A stretch of 47,851 nucleotides of DNA, taken from contig CABYIF010000006.1 in assembly GCA_902518985.1 (NCBI GenBank), positions 1-47,851 on the forward strand, read 5' to 3'. This document shows, piece after piece, positions 28,941 to 36,408 of the stretch. Each line of letters opens with the position of its first letter. The first letter of the stretch is position 1. Source of the stretch: an uncultured Alphaproteobacteria bacterium. GTDB lineage: Bacteria; Pseudomonadota; Alphaproteobacteria; HIMB59; GCA-002718135. Made by a program: the position numbers and the translations under genes. The notes below the pieces were generated by a model. That model searched no databases. It had not been told where the DNA came from and was given only the letters and a program-made list of their open reading frames with translations.

Positions 28941-29987
28941 ATGTCCGCAGTAGTAATAGAAAATTTAAACCATAAAATTGGCAAAAAACAAATTTTAAAA
29001 AATATAAATTTTGTTTTAAAAAAAGATAGTATCTCTTGTATATTAGGGCCTTCAGGTAGTGGTAAAACATCACTTTTAAAACTTATTGCTGGTTTAGATA
29101 AAGTACAGACTGGGAGAATAAAAATAAACGAAAAAGAAGTTAGTAGTTATTCAAAACATTTGCCAACTGAAAAAAGAAATATTGGCTTTTTGTTTCAAGA
29201 TTATGCTTTATTCCCTCATTTAACCGTTAAACAAAATCTTGAATATCCAATTAATTACAAAACATCGCCTCACACAATAGATGATATTATAAATTTGATT
29301 AAACTTCCTAATTCATTAAATAAATATCCTCATGAATTAAGTGGTGGTGAACAACAAAGAGTTGCATTAGCAAGATCTATTATTTCAAATCCTGATATTT
29401 TATTGTTAGACGAACCATTCTCTAGTCTTGATTTGAATCTTAGAGAAGATGTAAGAGATGATACTTTGCATTTACTTCAAAAATCAAATGTTTCAGTAAT
29501 AATAGTTACTCATGATCCCTTTGAGGCAATGTTTATTTCTAATCAAATAAACATAATGGATACAAATGGTGAAATAGTACAATCAGGAAGTCCTGCTGAA
29601 TTGTATAATAACCCAATTAATTCTTACGTTGCAGAATTTTTTGGTGAAACAAATAGGTTTGAAGGAGTTGTTAAAAACTCACATATATTAACTCCAATAG
29701 GTAAAATTAAAGCGCCAAGTAAATTAGAAAATCAAAAAGTAAAAGTCCACGTAAGACCAAAAGGTATAAAACTTAATCAACAACCCACCCCTGTTAATGG
29801 CATAAAAGGAACAGTTATGGCTTCTAAATTAATGGGCTCTTTTAGCTTCATTCATTTATCTGTATTAAATAGTGATAATGAGGTTATGCATATTCATAGT
29901 CACATGCCGCCAGACTTTAATCCTAAACAATCTTCAGCAGTTGGGATAGAGGTTGATGAAAAACAGGCTTTTATTTTTGAAAATTAA
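28941..29987 (+). CDS. fbpC: Ferric iron ABC transporter ATP-binding protein
   Basis: The 348-aa product is an ABC ATPase with Walker A GPSGSGKTS (residues 36-44), Q-loop FLFQDYALFPHLTV, signature LSGGEQQRVALARS, Walker B LLLDEPFSSLD and switch His VTHDPFEA. The C-terminal 110 residues form a TOBE-like domain, as in FbpC/FutC. It is convergent with fbpB, overlapping by 4 bases, so the ATPase is transcribed apart from its permease and binding protein. This split is unusual but the three together make a full importer. Confidence 0.9.
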   Translation: MSAVVIENLNHKIGKKQILKNINFVLKKDSISCILGPSGSGKTSLLKLIAGLDKVQTGRIKINEKEVSSYSKHLPTEKRNIGFLFQDYALFPHLTVKQNLEYPINYKTSPHTIDDIINLIKLPNSLNKYPHELSGGEQQRVALARSIISNPDILLLDEPFSSLDLNLREDVRDDTLHLLQKSNVSVIIVTHDPFEAMFISNQINIMDTNGEIVQSGSPAELYNNPINSYVAEFFGETNRFEGVVKNSHILTPIGKIKAPSKLENQKVKVHVRPKGIKLNQQPTPVNGIKGTVMASKLMGSFSFIHLSVLNSDNEVMHIHSHMPPDFNPKQSSAVGIEVDEKQAFIFEN

Positions 29988-31597
29988 GAGCTTTTCTTTT
30001 TTTTAGATACTCTTTGTAATTTAGAATTTAAGAATATAACTGGCCCTAAACCAACCAAAATAATAATAAGTGCAGCAAATGAAGACTCCTGAAGCAATTC
30101 ATCAGAAGCATATTGATATACATATGTTGAAAGAGTCTCGAAATTGAATGGCCTTAATAAAAGTGTGATAGGTAACTCTTTTAGAATATCAACAAAAACT
30201 AAAATACCGCCAACTAAGACATTGCTATATATTAGAGGTAAAATAATTTTTCTTATACTTTTATAAAAGCCTATACCCATTGATGATGATGCATCCATTG
30301 CATTAGGGTGTACTTTTAATATTCCTGATCTTATAGCAGCATTACCAACTGCTAAAAACCTGGTTACGTATGCGAAAATTAATACAATAAAACCACCAGC
30401 TACGTAACTAAGATGAAAATTTATTAAACTATTTAACCAGCCTACAAAAATAACTATTCCAACTGCTAATATTGTTCCAGGTAATGCATATCCACATGAA
30501 GCTAGAAAAATTATAATTTTGTGAAAATTATTAGATTTATAATTAGATATTAAGATAAGCAAAACAGAAGATAGCATAACAAAAAAAGCGCCTGCTATTG
30601 CAACGGTAATACTAGTTAATGCAGTTTTAAAAATTTCTGAAAAATTTATAATTGAAAAACCACTTATAACAAAATCTAAAAGTATTATAACAGGCACAAT
30701 GAAACCTAAAAAAATGGGGACAAGACAAACCAGAAAGCAAATTAGTTTTTTAGAATTTGATAAATTTTCAGAAATTAACATATTTTGTCCGCTACTCAGT
30801 TCATGAAACCTCTGTCTTCTTCTTGCTAAATATTCAATAGTTAAAAGGATTACTACAAAAATAAATAATACAGATGATATTTGAGATGCACCAGAAAGAC
30901 TATTCATACCAAGCCACACATTAAAGACCCCAAGTGTTAAAGTTTCTAAGGCAAAATACTCAACTGTTCCAAAATCTGAAATAGTTTCCATTAATACCAA
31001 AGCAAGGCCTGCAAATATTCCAGGTCTTGCTAATGGTAAAGCAACTGAAAAAAAACTATTGCGTCCATAAATTAAACTTGTTTGATAAAAAGATATTGGA
31101 ACTGTTAAAAAAGATGCTCGCGTCATCATGTAAACATATGGGTATAACACACAAGACATTACCAATATTGCCCCGCTCATCGATCTTATTTCAGGAAACC
31201 AATAATCAGATGAACTATCCCAATTAAAAATCTCTCTTAAAGTTTTTTGAAAAGATCCTGCATACTCAAGAAAGTCTGTGTAGGTGTATGCGATTATGTA
31301 TGCAGGTACTGCTGCTGGCAACAAAAGCGCCCACTCAAATATTTTTTTACCAAAAAAATTATATCTTGTTACAACCCAAGCACTAGATATACCAAATACT
31401 GAAGATAAAATACCAACGCCAAGCATCAAGACTAATGTGTTATAGACATATCTAGGCAATACAGTTGAAAATAAATGTGGCCACAACGTCGTGTCACCTA
31501 AAAAAGCAGAAAAAAAAACTGCAATTATAGGAGAAATAATAGCTAAAGCTAGTACTGTTGCTAATGTTGACGAACTATTCCAATTATACAAGATCAC
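29984..31597 (-). CDS. fbpB: Ferric iron ABC transporter permease (two-domain FbpB)
   Basis: The 537-aa permease holds two fused BPD-transport domains with about 12 helices. An EAA-like loop is in each half: SLIYGRNSFFSVALPLARPGIFAG and AMDASSSMGIGFYKSIRKIILPLIYSNVL. This fused form is typical of FbpB/SfuB/FutB iron importers. The start is GTG at 31597; the next in-frame ATG would remove part of the first helix. It follows fbpA by 12 bases. Confidence 0.92.
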   Translation of the reverse strand: MILYNWNSSSTLATVLALAIISPIIAVFFSAFLGDTTLWPHLFSTVLPRYVYNTLVLMLGVGILSSVFGISSAWVVTRYNFFGKKIFEWALLLPAAVPAYIIAYTYTDFLEYAGSFQKTLREIFNWDSSSDYWFPEIRSMSGAILVMSCVLYPYVYMMTRASFLTVPISFYQTSLIYGRNSFFSVALPLARPGIFAGLALVLMETISDFGTVEYFALETLTLGVFNVWLGMNSLSGASQISSVLFIFVVILLTIEYLARRRQRFHELSSGQNMLISENLSNSKKLICFLVCLVPIFLGFIVPVIILLDFVISGFSIINFSEIFKTALTSITVAIAGAFFVMLSSVLLILISNYKSNNFHKIIIFLASCGYALPGTILAVGIVIFVGWLNSLINFHLSYVAGGFIVLIFAYVTRFLAVGNAAIRSGILKVHPNAMDASSSMGIGFYKSIRKIILPLIYSNVLVGGILVFVDILKELPITLLLRPFNFETLSTYVYQYASDELLQESSFAALIIILVGLGPVIFLNSKLQRVSKKKKSS

Positions 31598-31609
31598 TTG
31601 TTATATAAA

Positions 31610-32629
31610 CTACCATCCAACTCTATCAATAATCTTTTGAGCATCTGGAGCTAATTCAGCAATTTTAATAATTGGTAGATTATCTTCCCTAAATTCTCCC
31701 CATTTTTTAAGCTCATCACTTGGAGAAACTTTTGGATTTACAGGATATTCAAAATTAATTTCACCATAAAGTTTTTGAGCTTTTTCACTGGTTAAAAATT
31801 CTAAGAGTGCCAAAGCTTCTTTTTTATTTTTGGAATATTTTGCAATACCGCCACCAGATATATTCACATGTGCGCCTCTATCTCCATCCCCTTGATTTGG
31901 AAATATTAGTCTGACATTCTCTACCCATTTTCTTTGTTCAGGGTCTTCTGAAAATTTTAATTTACCATAATAATAGTTATTTATTATTGCAATGGTGCAC
32001 TCACCTTCATAAATTGCTTTTACTTGGGCCCTATCATTACCTTGGGGTCTTTTAGCAAAATTTGCAACCAGTCCTTTTCCCCAATTTTCAGTTTTTTCTT
32101 CACCATATTCTGCTAGCACTGATGCCATTATTCCTCTGTTATAAACATGACTTCCAGGCCTAGTACAGATTTGTCCTTTCCATTTTGGATCTGCAAGATC
32201 TTCAAGTCTTGTTATTTCACCTTCTTTAATTTTAGTGTTATTAACAACAATGACTCTTGCCCTCTTTGATAAACCAAACCATGTATTTTCTGGGCTTCTT
32301 AAATAAGGTGGGATATTTTTAATTAATTTTTTTGACTCAACTGGCGAAAGTAAATCTAGATCATCATAAATATACAATCTTCCAATATCTACTGTAAGGA
32401 TGATATCTGCAGGACTATTTTCACCTTCAGCCTTTAGACGTTGCGCTAAACCTTTTTTTGAATAAATAACATTTGTTTTTATACCTGTATCCTTAGTAAA
32501 TAATTCCAAGAAAGGATTTATTAAAAAAGGCTGTCTGTGAGAATATATATTAATTTCTTTAGACATAAGATATGGTGTAAAAATGAACGTAATAATGAAA
32601 AATATAAAGCTAATCAGATTAGTTTTCAT
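31610..32629 (-). CDS. fbpA: Ferric iron-binding periplasmic protein
   Basis: The 339-aa product has a signal peptide (residues 1-23) and the FbpA/FutA fold. INIYSHRQPFLINPFLELFTKDTGIKTNVIY opens the mature part. Tyr-rich IINNYYYGKLKF supplies the adjacent iron-binding tyrosines, and NISGGGIAKYSKNKKEALALLEFLTSEKAQ is the typical C-terminal block. A GGAG Shine-Dalgarno stretch stands 8 bases before the ATG. It overlaps the end of the hydroxylase-like gene by 11 bases, which ties that gene to iron uptake. Confidence 0.92.
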   Translation of the reverse strand: MKTNLISFIFFIITFIFTPYLMSKEINIYSHRQPFLINPFLELFTKDTGIKTNVIYSKKGLAQRLKAEGENSPADIILTVDIGRLYIYDDLDLLSPVESKKLIKNIPPYLRSPENTWFGLSKRARVIVVNNTKIKEGEITRLEDLADPKWKGQICTRPGSHVYNRGIMASVLAEYGEEKTENWGKGLVANFAKRPQGNDRAQVKAIYEGECTIAIINNYYYGKLKFSEDPEQRKWVENVRLIFPNQGDGDRGAHVNISGGGIAKYSKNKKEALALLEFLTSEKAQKLYGEINFEYPVNPKVSPSDELKKWGEFREDNLPIIKIAELAPDAQKIIDRVGW

Positions 32630-33629
32630 GAAAAATTCTCCTTTTAATATTAATTGTAAAAATTTTGTGTTTTAGTTTTTTGAACCTTCTTAAAAAGTAA
32701 TTTTTAATTTCGATAAATGGGTTAATATACAAATCTTTGAGGTTGTGAGTTTCATCTTTTTGATTTTTTTCGATACCTAGTTCAAGTGTTTCATATTCTA
32801 CAGAATGATGAAGAGAGCCAAAGATCCAATCCCAGATGGCGAGTGCGGCACCAAAATTTTTATCATGATGTTCTCTTGCAATTGAATGGTGTAATTGATG
32901 TTGTGCAGGAGAAATAAATATATATTCAACCCAGCGCCAATAGCGAATTCCAATATGGGAATGTCGAAGATTAGAACCAAATATATTAAATAAAAATACG
33001 AATATATTCACGCCAAGAATAGTAAATAAATCTACAGAATTACCAAAAAGAAATATAAATGAAGATATGCTTATTGCTTGAGTTACGGAACTTCTTAAAG
33101 AAAATATAATGCCTTCTAATGGGTGTGTTCTGAAGACAGTCATAGGTGTCAAAACTGTAGCTGAGTGGTGAACCTTGTGAAGTGACCATAAAACTGGCCA
33201 TCTATGCATAAAACGGTGTATTATATATTTACTGAAATCATCTAAAGTAAATTGGAAACTTGTAAAAAAAATTACTACAATAAATGGCAAAGTATTTTTA
33301 AACATTCCTACACTTAGCCAATCAACAGAATGAAAATAAAAGTATAAAGCTGTTGCGATAGTTAATTGAGTAATCAACAATGGTGAAACCGTCATCATTA
33401 TTAACTGGTTGATAAAAAATATTTTATAGTCAGACTTAGCTGATTTAGAAAAAAATATTTTTTTATCAAATATTTTCTTTATTGCTTTTTTAAATGATAG
33501 TTTTCTATTTAAGACAAACCATCCAAGAGCAATAATTATAGAGATGACTATATAGGCAAAAAAAACTCTTTTTTTTGGATCAACAAATTGATTGCCAATC
33601 TTAACTAAGTATTCTGAAAAAATTTCCAT
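32619..33629 (-). CDS. Sterol desaturase/fatty acid hydroxylase family protein
   Basis: A membrane di-iron enzyme of 336 aa. The His boxes are readable: HRFMHR, HKVHHS and the later HQLHHS with REHHDKNFG, following the family's HX3H, HX2HH and HX2HH scheme. Four to five hydrophobic helices precede and separate them. Substrates in this family range from sterols and hopanoids to lipid acyl chains. Its place between DUF4856 and fbpA suggests an iron-linked lipid modification or simply an iron-demanding enzyme controlled with uptake. Confidence 0.9.
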   Translation of the reverse strand: MEIFSEYLVKIGNQFVDPKKRVFFAYIVISIIIALGWFVLNRKLSFKKAIKKIFDKKIFFSKSAKSDYKIFFINQLIMMTVSPLLITQLTIATALYFYFHSVDWLSVGMFKNTLPFIVVIFFTSFQFTLDDFSKYIIHRFMHRWPVLWSLHKVHHSATVLTPMTVFRTHPLEGIIFSLRSSVTQAISISSFIFLFGNSVDLFTILGVNIFVFLFNIFGSNLRHSHIGIRYWRWVEYIFISPAQHQLHHSIAREHHDKNFGAALAIWDWIFGSLHHSVEYETLELGIEKNQKDETHNLKDLYINPFIEIKNYFLRRFKKLKHKIFTINIKRRIFHEN

Positions 33630-33674: not shown

Positions 33675-35054
33675 TTAATCATTTTCTGCAGAGTCAGAAC
33701 TTCCCATTGAACTAGAGAGGTCTTCCATTGCAGACAGTTGATCGTTAGCTCTTGCAGTAACACCAAACTCATCCACCATAAGTTTTTGAATTTTAAGCAT
33801 GTGTAACTTGAATTCACCCCAATCTTGAGCTTGGTCTTTTATAAAATCACCATTCGACTGAACACCAACAACTTGTGATGCATTCAATAAAACTGGTCCA
33901 AAGCCCATCATACGGTTCATTTTTACAGCTGTTTCACCTAAATTTTCTGGTCCACACTGAAGTGCTAGAGCAAAACCTTTAAGCTCCCCCCAGTGTTTTG
34001 CATATTTTCTAAATGCATCAGTTGTGTCACCATTAGCGTCCATGATTGTTTCGAGAGCGACAATATCTTTGTAAGTTGAACCTGCGTACTTGAATACAGA
34101 TTCAGCAATTACTTTTTGCCAGTTCTCTCTAATTGTATCTCTTGCTGCTAACATATCTGATCTTTCAGCAAAATTAAGGTTACGACCTCCAGCATCTCTG
34201 ATAACTTTTCTTCCATCAATAAACGCATGATTTATTGTTGCTAGATAATCAGTTTTACCACCTTTGTCATAACTTGATGCGTAATATGCATGTGCGAATA
34301 CCATCTCAGAATACAAGTCTACTACGCCATCACCATTATAATCTGCAGCAGAGAAATCTTTCATCTTTGCAATGTTATAATTATCTTCAGCTGATATCAT
34401 CATAGAATGTGCTGGTGCGCCCCAGTATCCAAAAGCCTCATCCCAGCTATGTTCTTTACCAGTGTAGTATGCACCATCTTTATAAGGTTTGTTATTTGGT
34501 TTTTGACCAATTTCCATTTTCTTTCCAAGATAGTTATTTACTGCTTGGTTATAAAAAACTGCACCCATTGCAAATTTGGATATTAGCTGAGTGTAATCAA
34601 ATCCAGTATCAGGATCAAAACCTCCTTCAACTTCACTAGCTTTTTTCATCATGTGCTCTAATGTTTCAGGACCAGTTAGACCTCCCCATCCAGCAATTGC
34701 GCCTTTATACATTTTACCGGATAAGTTACCACTGCCTATCTCAGAAACCATAGTTTGCATTATTGGAAAACCATCTTTAGACTTTGGATCAATAATTTCT
34801 AAACCATCTTCCCCGTTGTAGTAAGCCATCATTTTTTCTAGGTCACCAGTTTTGACAAGTTTTTTCAAACTATTATGAAGAACTTGTCTTGCCATTTGAC
34901 CAGTATATTTTACTGAGTTTGTTTTATCTCCATCATAACCTTTAAGCGTAATTGGATATGGACCATAAACTTCTGGACCATGACCATCAGCAAATGATTT
35001 TGAAACACCAAAAGAAAAAACTAACGCAGTTGCAATTAGTAGTATTTTTTTCAT
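33675..35054 (-). CDS. Imelysin-like DUF4856 exported protein
   Basis: The 459-aa product has a signal peptide (KKILLIATALVFSFGVSKSFA). Its sequence fits DUF4856 (from memory), a family in the imelysin/peptidase M75 clan linked to iron in several bacteria. Visible blocks are VKYTGQMARQVLHNSLKKLV, GKEHSWDEAFGYWGAP and KHWGELKGFALALQ. The tail is Ser/Asp-rich. Two ATGs lie 6 bases apart; AAGGA is 8 bases from the second, so 35054 is chosen over 35060. It heads the operon with the hydroxylase, fbpA and fbpB. The upstream region holds a long leader and an ICE-like palindrome. An iron-uptake role is inferred. Confidence 0.8.
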   Translation of the reverse strand: MKKILLIATALVFSFGVSKSFADGHGPEVYGPYPITLKGYDGDKTNSVKYTGQMARQVLHNSLKKLVKTGDLEKMMAYYNGEDGLEIIDPKSKDGFPIMQTMVSEIGSGNLSGKMYKGAIAGWGGLTGPETLEHMMKKASEVEGGFDPDTGFDYTQLISKFAMGAVFYNQAVNNYLGKKMEIGQKPNNKPYKDGAYYTGKEHSWDEAFGYWGAPAHSMMISAEDNYNIAKMKDFSAADYNGDGVVDLYSEMVFAHAYYASSYDKGGKTDYLATINHAFIDGRKVIRDAGGRNLNFAERSDMLAARDTIRENWQKVIAESVFKYAGSTYKDIVALETIMDANGDTTDAFRKYAKHWGELKGFALALQCGPENLGETAVKMNRMMGFGPVLLNASQVVGVQSNGDFIKDQAQDWGEFKLHMLKIQKLMVDEFGVTARANDQLSAMEDLSSSMGSSDSAEND

Positions 35055-35098
35055 ATACATATTCCTTAATTAAATTAAATTTTCTTAGTTTTATAGAT

Positions 35099-35166
35099 GT
35101 GGAGATAAGCGAAAACAGTTGAGGCTAAGATGTGCATTTACCCTTAAATAATTTACTTATCTCCAC
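35099..35166 (-). ncRNA. Candidate structured 5' leader of the DUF4856 operon
   Basis: In the 232-bp gap before the DUF4856 gene, GTGGAGATAAG (35156-35166 read on the minus strand) pairs perfectly with CTTATCTCCAC (35099-35109), closing a 46-base interior. A second small pairing (TCCT/AGGA, about 35168-35182) lies just upstream in the transcript. The stem ends about 45 bases before the ATG. An 11-bp perfect match over this distance in an A+T-rich gap is unlikely by chance. I do not recognise a known riboswitch class. Confidence 0.5.
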
Positions 35167-35261
35167 GTCCTATTACTAAGGATCTAGGGTCTATTTATAA
35201 TAAAACAATTTTTATAATTATTTATTTGATAAATTAAGTCTCATAATGAATTTTGTGTAAA

Positions 35262-35278
35262 TTTAGAATTATTCTAAT
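35262..35278. promoter_or_regulatory. ICE-like palindrome 1 (candidate Irr operator)
   Basis: TTTAGAATTATTCTAAT matches the alphaproteobacterial iron control element TTTAGAA-N3-TTCTAAA at 13 of 14 defined positions. The core TTAGAAT-T-ATTCTAA is a perfect 7-1-7 palindrome. It lies about 205 bp upstream of the DUF4856 ATG, in the gap that leads the iron operon. ICE sites are bound by Irr in rhizobia and relatives; whether this organism has Irr is not visible here. Confidence 0.65.
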
Positions 35279-35286
35279 TTAAAGAA

Positions 35287-35646
35287 TTAGTTAAATTTAG
35301 ATTTTTTTTCCAAGTACCAATTTGTAATCATTAATGAGAATTTTTTAGATATTTTGTAGTATGTCTGTTTTTTATTATCTAAATATTTTTTTTCCTTAAA
35401 AAAGTTTTTTTCTAAACCCTCTTTTAAAACCTCTTTGACTTGATTTTCATCACCTAGTGAAGTTGGTATAGATAATCTAAGTTTAGAATAGCTGATTTTT
35501 TCATCTAATATGCTTGATGAAGCAATCTCTAAAGACACCATAAGATGCATGATAGATTTGAAAAAAAAACGCTTACATTCATTATGATTATTATGAGTTA
35601 TGATGTCTTTTTTAAAGTTATTTATAAAGCTTACTAATGAACCCAT
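35287..35646 (-). CDS. Unrecognised 119-aa protein, possibly winged-helix
   Basis: The product is basic and mostly helical at the N-terminus (CKRFFFKSIMHLMVSLEIASSSIL). The C-terminal half, KLRLSIPTSLGDENQVKEVLKEGLEKNFFKEKKYLDNKKQTYYKISKKF, could form a helix-turn-helix plus wing, as in MarR-like regulators. I cannot name a family. It is the only gene between two ICE-like palindromes, with its own 174-bp leader containing an inverted repeat. No good Shine-Dalgarno is seen before the ATG. A regulator of the metal genes around it is a reasonable guess. Confidence 0.6.
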   Translation of the reverse strand: MGSLVSFINNFKKDIITHNNHNECKRFFFKSIMHLMVSLEIASSSILDEKISYSKLRLSIPTSLGDENQVKEVLKEGLEKNFFKEKKYLDNKKQTYYKISKKFSLMITNWYLEKKSKFN

Positions 35647-35657
35647 ATTGTTAAAGT

Positions 35658-35714
35658 TGGTGGTTAATAATCATAAGATTAATGTGAGTTATAATGTTAA
35701 CATACTAACCACCA
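35658..35714 (-). promoter_or_regulatory. Inverted repeat in the leader of the 119-aa gene
   Basis: TGGTGGTTA and TAACCACCA form a perfect 9-bp inverted repeat around a 39-base interior that itself contains the palindrome TGTTAACA. On the minus strand the stem ends 11 bases before the ATG at 35646, close enough to affect ribosome access. It could equally be a DNA operator. Confidence 0.45.
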
Positions 35715-35804
35715 TGGAACGGAAGTAGTCTTATTTATACTAAAAAAAAAATTTATTTGTTAAATAAAAAAAAGATATATAAAACTCAATGATAATAGTA
35801 TGGT

Positions 35805-35821
35805 TTTAGAACTATTCTAAT
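35805..35821. promoter_or_regulatory. ICE-like palindrome 2 (candidate Irr operator)
   Basis: TTTAGAACTATTCTAAT is again 13 of 14 to TTTAGAA-N3-TTCTAAA. It touches the last base of the HupE-like gene and lies about 160 bp upstream of the 119-aa gene. Having two near-identical palindromes within 550 bp, both in front of minus-strand genes, strengthens both calls. Confidence 0.65.
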
Positions 35822-36408
35822 TAAAATAATAAATAGAATCCAAAAAGCGCACAACTAAAACCAAGAATCCTTAATATTATATTTAGCAAATTATTTTTTA
35901 TAAGTGTAAGTCCAATACCAACACCAAACAGATGTAGGGCCGCAGTTCCTAAGGAAAAACCTAAAGCAAACAATAAGGGGTTTGCTGCCCAAGGCATTTC
36001 AATGCCATGAGCTAAACCATGAAATGATCCAAAAAAAACAACTGCTATCATTATAATATTTGTTGGCAATTTTTTTTCTATTGCAACTGATAAACCTAAA
36101 AAAATAACTGAAAAAATTATTCCCCATTCAATGATTTCAGAAAAAGTAATGGCTAGTAGCTCTATAAACAACCCAGCTGCACCTCCTAAAATCATAAATA
36201 AAACAAATAAAGAGGGAACTGTCCATATAGCTCTTCCACCAATTTGTGAGCTGACAACTCCAACACAAACCATTGCTAAAAAATGATCTAACCCTAAAAC
36301 AGGATGTGACAGACCATCATAAAAACCATTCATCCCAGTAAAGGTATGAGCATGTATAGGTTTAATAATAAAAAGTGTACTTATGAGAAAAAAAATTCTT
36401 AGAAACAT
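35821..36408 (-). CDS. HupE/UreJ-family membrane protein
   Basis: The 195-aa product has a signal-like first segment and about six helices. It carries the family's metal-coordinating motifs SHPVLGLDHFLAM near residue 35 and FFGSFHGLAHGIEMP near residue 127. HupE/UreJ proteins are thought to carry nickel or cobalt. No hydrogenase or urease gene is in the window, so the metal cannot be named. The gene follows the unknown 224-aa gene by 8 bases and its stop touches an ICE-like palindrome. Confidence 0.87.
   Translation of the reverse strand: MFLRIFFLISTLFIIKPIHAHTFTGMNGFYDGLSHPVLGLDHFLAMVCVGVVSSQIGGRAIWTVPSLFVLFMILGGAAGLFIELLAITFSEIIEWGIIFSVIFLGLSVAIEKKLPTNIIMIAVVFFGSFHGLAHGIEMPWAANPLLFALGFSLGTAALHLFGVGIGLTLIKNNLLNIILRILGFSCALFGFYLLF

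Follow-up and report, generated by a model that had tools for sequence, protein, structure and literature searches.

A covarying double-hairpin leader upstream of an iron-transporter operon in one alphaproteobacterial genus

Iron is limiting for marine bacterioplankton. Post-transcriptional control of iron uptake has been proposed for streamlined marine alphaproteobacteria without a known RNA element, and the leader described here provides a concrete, covarying candidate. In Pelagibacter, SfuC is increased under iron limitation while most proteins decrease, and the cold-shock proteins CspE and CspL have been proposed as post-transcriptional agents (PMC2864753). The locus presented here is similar in that a ferric substrate-binding protein is encoded by a streamlined marine alphaproteobacterium and post-transcriptional control is proposed; however, it belongs to another order, and no leader motif was found described for sfuC in that work (PMC2864753).

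Three other groups of described systems are close to this locus. In Rhizobiales and Rhodobacterales, Irr exerts both positive and negative control through the ICE (PMC3413700, PMC10374146). The present locus shares with this regulon an ICE palindrome, an IrrA encoded in the genome and iron genes downstream. However, transcription of mbfA and ccpA in Rhodobacter sphaeroides starts within the ICE box or about 40 nt from it (PMC3413700, PMC10374146), whereas the site here is centered about 85 bp upstream of the predicted start and is followed by a structured leader. Secondary structure at the 5' end is known to stabilize mRNA, as RppH and RNase E require single-stranded 5' ends, and the stem-loops of Escherichia coli ompA and papA act in this manner (PMC3997798). 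These resemble the present leader in having a hairpin at or very near the 5' end (here a predicted end), structure favored over sequence and an open Shine-Dalgarno site downstream, but here the hairpins form a tandem pair found genus-wide before one iron operon, the sequence of hairpin 1 is conserved as well, and an effect on half-life is a proposal. Finally, the NiCo/czcD and other metal riboswitches of Rfam also place a structured leader before a metal-related gene, but the present leader matched no Rfam family and has no shared aptamer or expression platform.

Locus, promoter, and leader structure

The window, meaning the whole stretch of 47,851 nucleotides that was analyzed, is contig CABYIF010000006.1 (assembly GCA_902518985.1, positions 1 to 47,851) from an uncultured alphaproteobacterium (HIMB59; GCA-002718135). 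The leader precedes an operon of four genes, listed in their order of transcription.

33675..35060, minus strand: DUF4856 protein, first gene of the operon (PF16148, 42.8 bits)
32619..33629, minus strand: fatty-acid hydroxylase family protein (PF04116)
31610..32629, minus strand: ferric-iron substrate-binding protein of the FutA/FbpA type (PDB 2pt1, E 8e-88, and many ferric-binding proteins)
29984..31597, minus strand: ABC-transporter permease (PF00528)

As the best PDB match of the substrate-binding protein is 2pt1, a FutA/FbpA-type ferric-binding protein, the operon was assigned to ferric iron. The features upstream of it are as follows, from the promoter toward the start codon.

35263..35277, minus strand: Irr-type palindrome TTAGAATAATTCTAA (ICE2), 92 bp upstream of the predicted mRNA 5' end
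35194..35199, minus strand: putative -10-like hexamer TATAAA, assigned by sequence
35095..35185, minus strand: complete conserved leader element, matched by covariance model R1 with 72.4 bits
35168..35182, minus strand: hairpin 1 (nt 4-18), UCCU...AGGA, with pairs 4-18 and 5-17 changing on both sides in relatives
35156..35166, minus strand: 5' arm of hairpin 2, GUGGAGAUAAG, the stem of the preliminary description
35099..35109, minus strand: 3' arm of hairpin 2, CUUAUCUCCAC, forming 11 perfect bp with the 5' arm across 46 nt
35084..35089, minus strand: ACUAAG, found in type A leaders only, which can pair with CUUAGU (35175-35180) in competition with hairpin 1
35063..35067, minus strand: Shine-Dalgarno sequence AAGGA

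The preliminary description of this DNA had reported an 11-bp perfect stem with a 46-nt interior between the palindrome and the ATG. An inverted-repeat search recovered it, with the 11 perfect bp (GTGGAGATAAG / CTTATCTCCAC) contained in 14-nt arms at 35096-35109 and 35156-35169 that match at 93%, downstream of the Irr-type palindrome and upstream of the DUF4856 gene on the minus strand. The extent of the element had to be revised, however, as it begins farther upstream and includes the hairpin at 35168-35182, running from 35185 to about 35095 with small hairpin 1 followed by long hairpin 2. The 170-nt minus-strand leader has a predicted fold of -33 kcal/mol (z = -2.99), equaled by 1 of 200 shuffles, and the segment from the predicted 5' end to the ATG gave -30.8 kcal/mol (z = -4.2). 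The structure is considered to be beyond chance because, across the genus, this operon is preceded by the same fold, and compensatory changes maintain it. In the predicted fold, the 5 to 14 nt before the ATG are mostly unpaired. The DUF4856 ATG at 35060 is ATA in several close relatives, and for this reason translation may instead begin at 35054, where there is an in-frame ATG.

The palindrome has the form TTAGAA-N3-TTCTAA, which we take to be the ICE consensus recognized by Irr. Perfect TTAGAANNNTTCTAA sites occur only twice in the genome, both inside the window, and the genome encodes an Irr (IrrA NF045678, 151.8 bits versus a cut-off of 150). The distance from the palindrome to the first A of the element is 92-95 bp in 58 of 59 distinct leaders, and in most leaders a hexamer resembling TATAAA or GATAAT precedes this A by 8 nt, but anywhere between 56 and 131 nt separate the element from the start codon. 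This pattern indicates that the element is anchored to the predicted mRNA 5' end and not to the start codon. The sequence between palindrome and element is mostly unrelated among leader types. Hairpin 1 starts 3 nt past the predicted start in all type A-E leaders, where the start is placed by the -10 hexamer and the palindrome spacing and type A has a competing predicted fold. Such spacing would suit an activator positioned about 85 bp upstream and a transcript that begins at the element; we infer both Irr binding and the start site.

Leader types, covariation, and distribution

The upstream regions of homologous operons share the sequence 5'-AGAUYCUYARUMAKAGRACR, which leads directly into a stem arm. 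This arrangement gives tandem hairpins, with nt 4-8 paired to nt 14-18 in hairpin 1 and nt 20-27 paired to a distal arm in hairpin 2. The leader of the window represents type A, which is followed by the DUF4856 operon and has a 46-nt hairpin 2 interior; type D (stem CGGGAGC) is also followed by the DUF4856 operon. In type B (a 56-59-nt leader with a tiny hairpin 2 loop) and type C (stem GAGGGUU), the substrate-binding protein lies directly behind the leader, and types E (G036) and F (G085) are each represented by one divergent leader. The loops and the hairpin 2 interiors, ranging from 7 to 46 nt, are unrelated between types.

Comparison of 14 leaders showed 94.6% of cells paired and both-side changes in 7 of 12 pairs. 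Extension to 24 distinct sequences gave 92% of cells paired, with a covariation score of 0.497 compared to 0.253 +/- 0.019 for shuffles (0 of 500 reached the observed score) and no more than 0.22 for slid-partner controls, although these sequences were registered by hand from the structure, which biases towards structure. As expected of a 5' stabilizer, pairing is retained over sequence, based on both-side changes in 9 of 13 pairs in the larger set and on the predicted hairpin 1 of G085. In this distant relative, hairpin 1 reads GACUUUUUACGAGUC in place of UUCUCAAUAAGAGGA; pairs 4-18 and 5-17 are both exchanged and the sequence still pairs, so that the predicted hairpin is rebuilt with compensatory changes and a new loop. 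Most of the covariation signal comes from hairpin 2. Taken by itself, hairpin 1 shows both-side changes at two pairs and is not clearly above the slid controls on every measure, and its sequence is strongly conserved inside each host clade. Several near-identical type B genomes carry single-base changes, and since these often break a pair, the short-range constraint looks weak. The two checks named in the preliminary description, compensatory changes in relatives and the position of the transcript start, both turned out in favor of the stem: such changes are present, and the start predicted from sequence lies upstream of it.

The covariance model identified exactly one copy per genome in 81 of 102 genomes of the genus, with no match in six other genera of the order or in 287 other alphaproteobacteria. 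A search of Rfam 15 gave no match at the gathering threshold, nor any up to E = 5 on 35040-35850. The leader element is real, undescribed by Rfam, and restricted to the genus. The earlier suggestion of an uncharacterized cis-acting RNA is therefore supported, as a conserved, covarying structure without a matching Rfam family precedes an iron operon. A mobile or repeated element was rejected given the single copy per genome, and a virus origin was rejected because a search of viral contigs for the type A 27-mer gave no exact match. A pattern scan of GTDB returned about nine matches in unrelated bacteria, which were taken as chance among 257 billion bases. Database records with the leader are mostly single-cell genomes. 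One contig labeled as an uncultured gammaproteobacterium (L178, CAJYAP010000031.1) carries a true type C leader and the substrate-binding protein gene of the genus and is probably mis-binned.

Twelve genomes of the genus without a hit were checked, and nine of these, which are incomplete assemblies, lacked a match to the substrate-binding protein. The three that have the protein are G024, G032, and G085, the type F case. In G024 (L222), hairpin 1 and the 5' arm of hairpin 2 are deleted, but the palindrome, the -10 hexamer, the Shine-Dalgarno site, and the gene are kept. The deletion could be real or an artifact of single-cell amplification; if it is real, the element is dispensable in G024. 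The leader of G032 is unrelated in sequence but forms a strong 15-bp hairpin of its own, a further case of structure kept over sequence, and its palindrome lies 82 bp from the corresponding 5' stretch, one helical turn less. The palindrome is also present in the sister genus G126, where no strong leader structure was found (z = +0.7).

A host tree built from four flanking genes placed types A and B and the G024 deletion in one clade and types C, D, and E in another, and the leader labels need two changes on this tree, which is the minimum. The substrate-binding proteins group otherwise, with identities of 74-82% between A and D and 79-82% between B and C but only 58-60% between A and B. This disagreement indicates that one version of the coding operon has been exchanged for the other behind the leader, and that the leader itself remains with the host lineage. 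A host factor may read the leader, or recombination may merely have ended between the leader and the genes.

A possible role at the mRNA 5' end and its alternatives

Our preferred proposal, with about an even chance of being right, is a structured leader at the 5' terminus of the mRNA that works in cis to influence decay or translation, in a ferric ABC-transporter operon under Irr control. The element would form the mRNA 5' end of the ferric-iron ABC-transporter operon of the genus. When iron is scarce, Irr or a similar regulator on the palindrome, centered about 85 bp upstream, would activate the promoter, and transcription would start at the A of AGAUYCU. The first 20 nt would fold into hairpin 1, directly followed by hairpin 2, with an open Shine-Dalgarno site farther down. 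The paired 5' end could shield the mRNA from 5'-end-dependent decay by RppH and RNase E while leaving the ribosome-binding region accessible, allowing efficient synthesis of the transporter in iron starvation. Protection from RppH and RNase E is suggested by the position at the predicted 5' end together with pairing favored over sequence, and the Shine-Dalgarno region is mostly open in types A and B. However, the primary sequence of hairpin 1 appears more conserved than a generic stabilizer would need, and the most stable predicted fold of type A leaves five 5' bases unpaired.

This competing fold joins CUUAGU to ACUAAG (P1) and is predicted to be 3.8-9.2 kcal/mol better than the fold with hairpin 1 (H1). 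All 16 distinct type A leaders carry ACUAAG, and the one with a base change in it still forms a G-U pair there. Because P1 is always kept and is the more stable in prediction, a two-state type A leader is possible. The P1 partner is not conserved outside type A.

The strong conservation of hairpin 1 within each host clade counts in favor of the main rival explanation, in which a putative host RNA-binding protein, either a cold-shock or an iron-dependent one, recognizes hairpin 1 and the hairpin 2 junction and gates translation or decay by iron status. This became the main rival on account of the post-transcriptional proposal for the ferric-binding protein of Pelagibacter, and a leader type that tracks the host tree despite an alternating operon would be expected if a host factor reads the leader. 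We nevertheless regard it as doubtful, since the sequence and loop of hairpin 1 are wholly changed in G085, a resident leader staying put while genes swap explains the host pattern as well, and the Csp model is itself a proposal from another order. A broader version, a genus-wide post-transcriptional switch for iron starvation in which a host-specific factor reads the 5' double hairpin (or type A refolds between H1 and P1) and thereby selects the transporter mRNA for translation under iron shortage, is unlikely in our estimation; if true, it would explain why the leader type tracks the host while the operon is exchanged. The two mutually exclusive pairings, both found in all 16 type A leaders, could also be the two states of a riboswitch binding iron, heme, or a metabolite, and the iron operon and an untranslated leader of about 125 nt would suit this. 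We consider it improbable, because the P1 partner is not conserved outside type A, the part common to all types amounts to one stem arm and about 26 nt, type B has so short a leader with so small a loop, Rfam gave no match up to E = 5, no terminator was found, and the types have no Shine-Dalgarno trap in common. A usual aptamer would be larger and less tolerant of change than this common part, which makes a classical iron or heme riboswitch less likely. The response of the RNA to iron or a metabolite that had been put forward earlier gained no support, as the leaders showed neither a shared aptamer core nor a terminator or Shine-Dalgarno trap, and iron responsiveness is more simply explained by the upstream Irr-type palindrome.

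The fixed spacing to the palindrome and the -10 hexamer is also what would be seen if the conserved start-site bases act at the level of the DNA or of the initially transcribed sequence, for promoter escape or as an operator overlapping the start, with the hairpins being secondary, and hairpin 1 is an imperfect DNA dyad. Little probability is given to this explanation, as U-G pairs, which keep an RNA helix but break DNA symmetry, occur at 5-17 in 6 of 24 sequences, and a DNA site does not need covariation between hairpin 2 arms up to about 46 nt apart. Hairpin 2 was rejected as a DNA operator because its arms covary across a loop of variable length. Very unlikely is an element that is targeted by, or releases, a small RNA, for example by pairing with the transcript of a neighboring element (element 1, 35659-35728). 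Element 1 lies at a like distance from its palindrome (91-92 bp), its 17-nt 5' part is strictly conserved, and a portion of it can pair imperfectly, by eye, with the region from hairpin 1 to stem 2; however, this pairing is short and bulged and was judged by eye rather than against chance, and, apart from one unrelated match, element 1 was found in 19 genomes, all of them with type A leaders, with the leader being much wider in distribution.

Further candidates were rejected. A search of the leader found no intrinsic terminator or attenuator, and hairpin 2 is not followed by a U-run. By eye, the 5' pyrimidine stretch could mask the Shine-Dalgarno site in type A and partly in types B and D, but such masking is not kept in type C and G085 and was therefore rejected as a shared mechanism. 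An upstream peptide was considered for a 20-codon ATG frame in the leader of the window, the ATG of which is missing in most relatives. For the preferred reading, a cis-acting structured 5' leader, the natural variants (a rebuilt hairpin, a deletion, and exchanged operons) make the role of the leader directly testable, and the leader could also mark iron-stress transcripts in metatranscriptomes.

Neighboring open reading frame and second palindrome

On the other side of the palindrome from the leader stem lies an ORF of 119 aa (35287-35646), for which searches of Pfam and NCBIfam gave no match. It looks like a winged-helix regulator, it has its own upstream palindrome, and by eye it is related to a longer ORF that type D genomes carry in this position. 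Element 1, on the minus strand, precedes this ORF and is itself preceded by the second palindrome (35806-35820). It consists of the 5' sequence CUACUUCCGUUCCAUGG followed by a stem, GGUGGUUA...UAACCACC, in which relatives show a G-C/A-U exchange. Many type A genomes without the ORF keep the palindrome and the element, and element 1 may therefore be an iron-regulated small RNA or a second leader. In the type D genomes L006, L009, and L043 (minus strand), a palindrome of its own also accompanies the ORF upstream of the leader, and a conserved hairpin follows this palindrome after roughly 100 bp. This hairpin could encode a short peptide, MFLL-VEKLLQVPAQFF, ending near the start codon of the upstream ORF.
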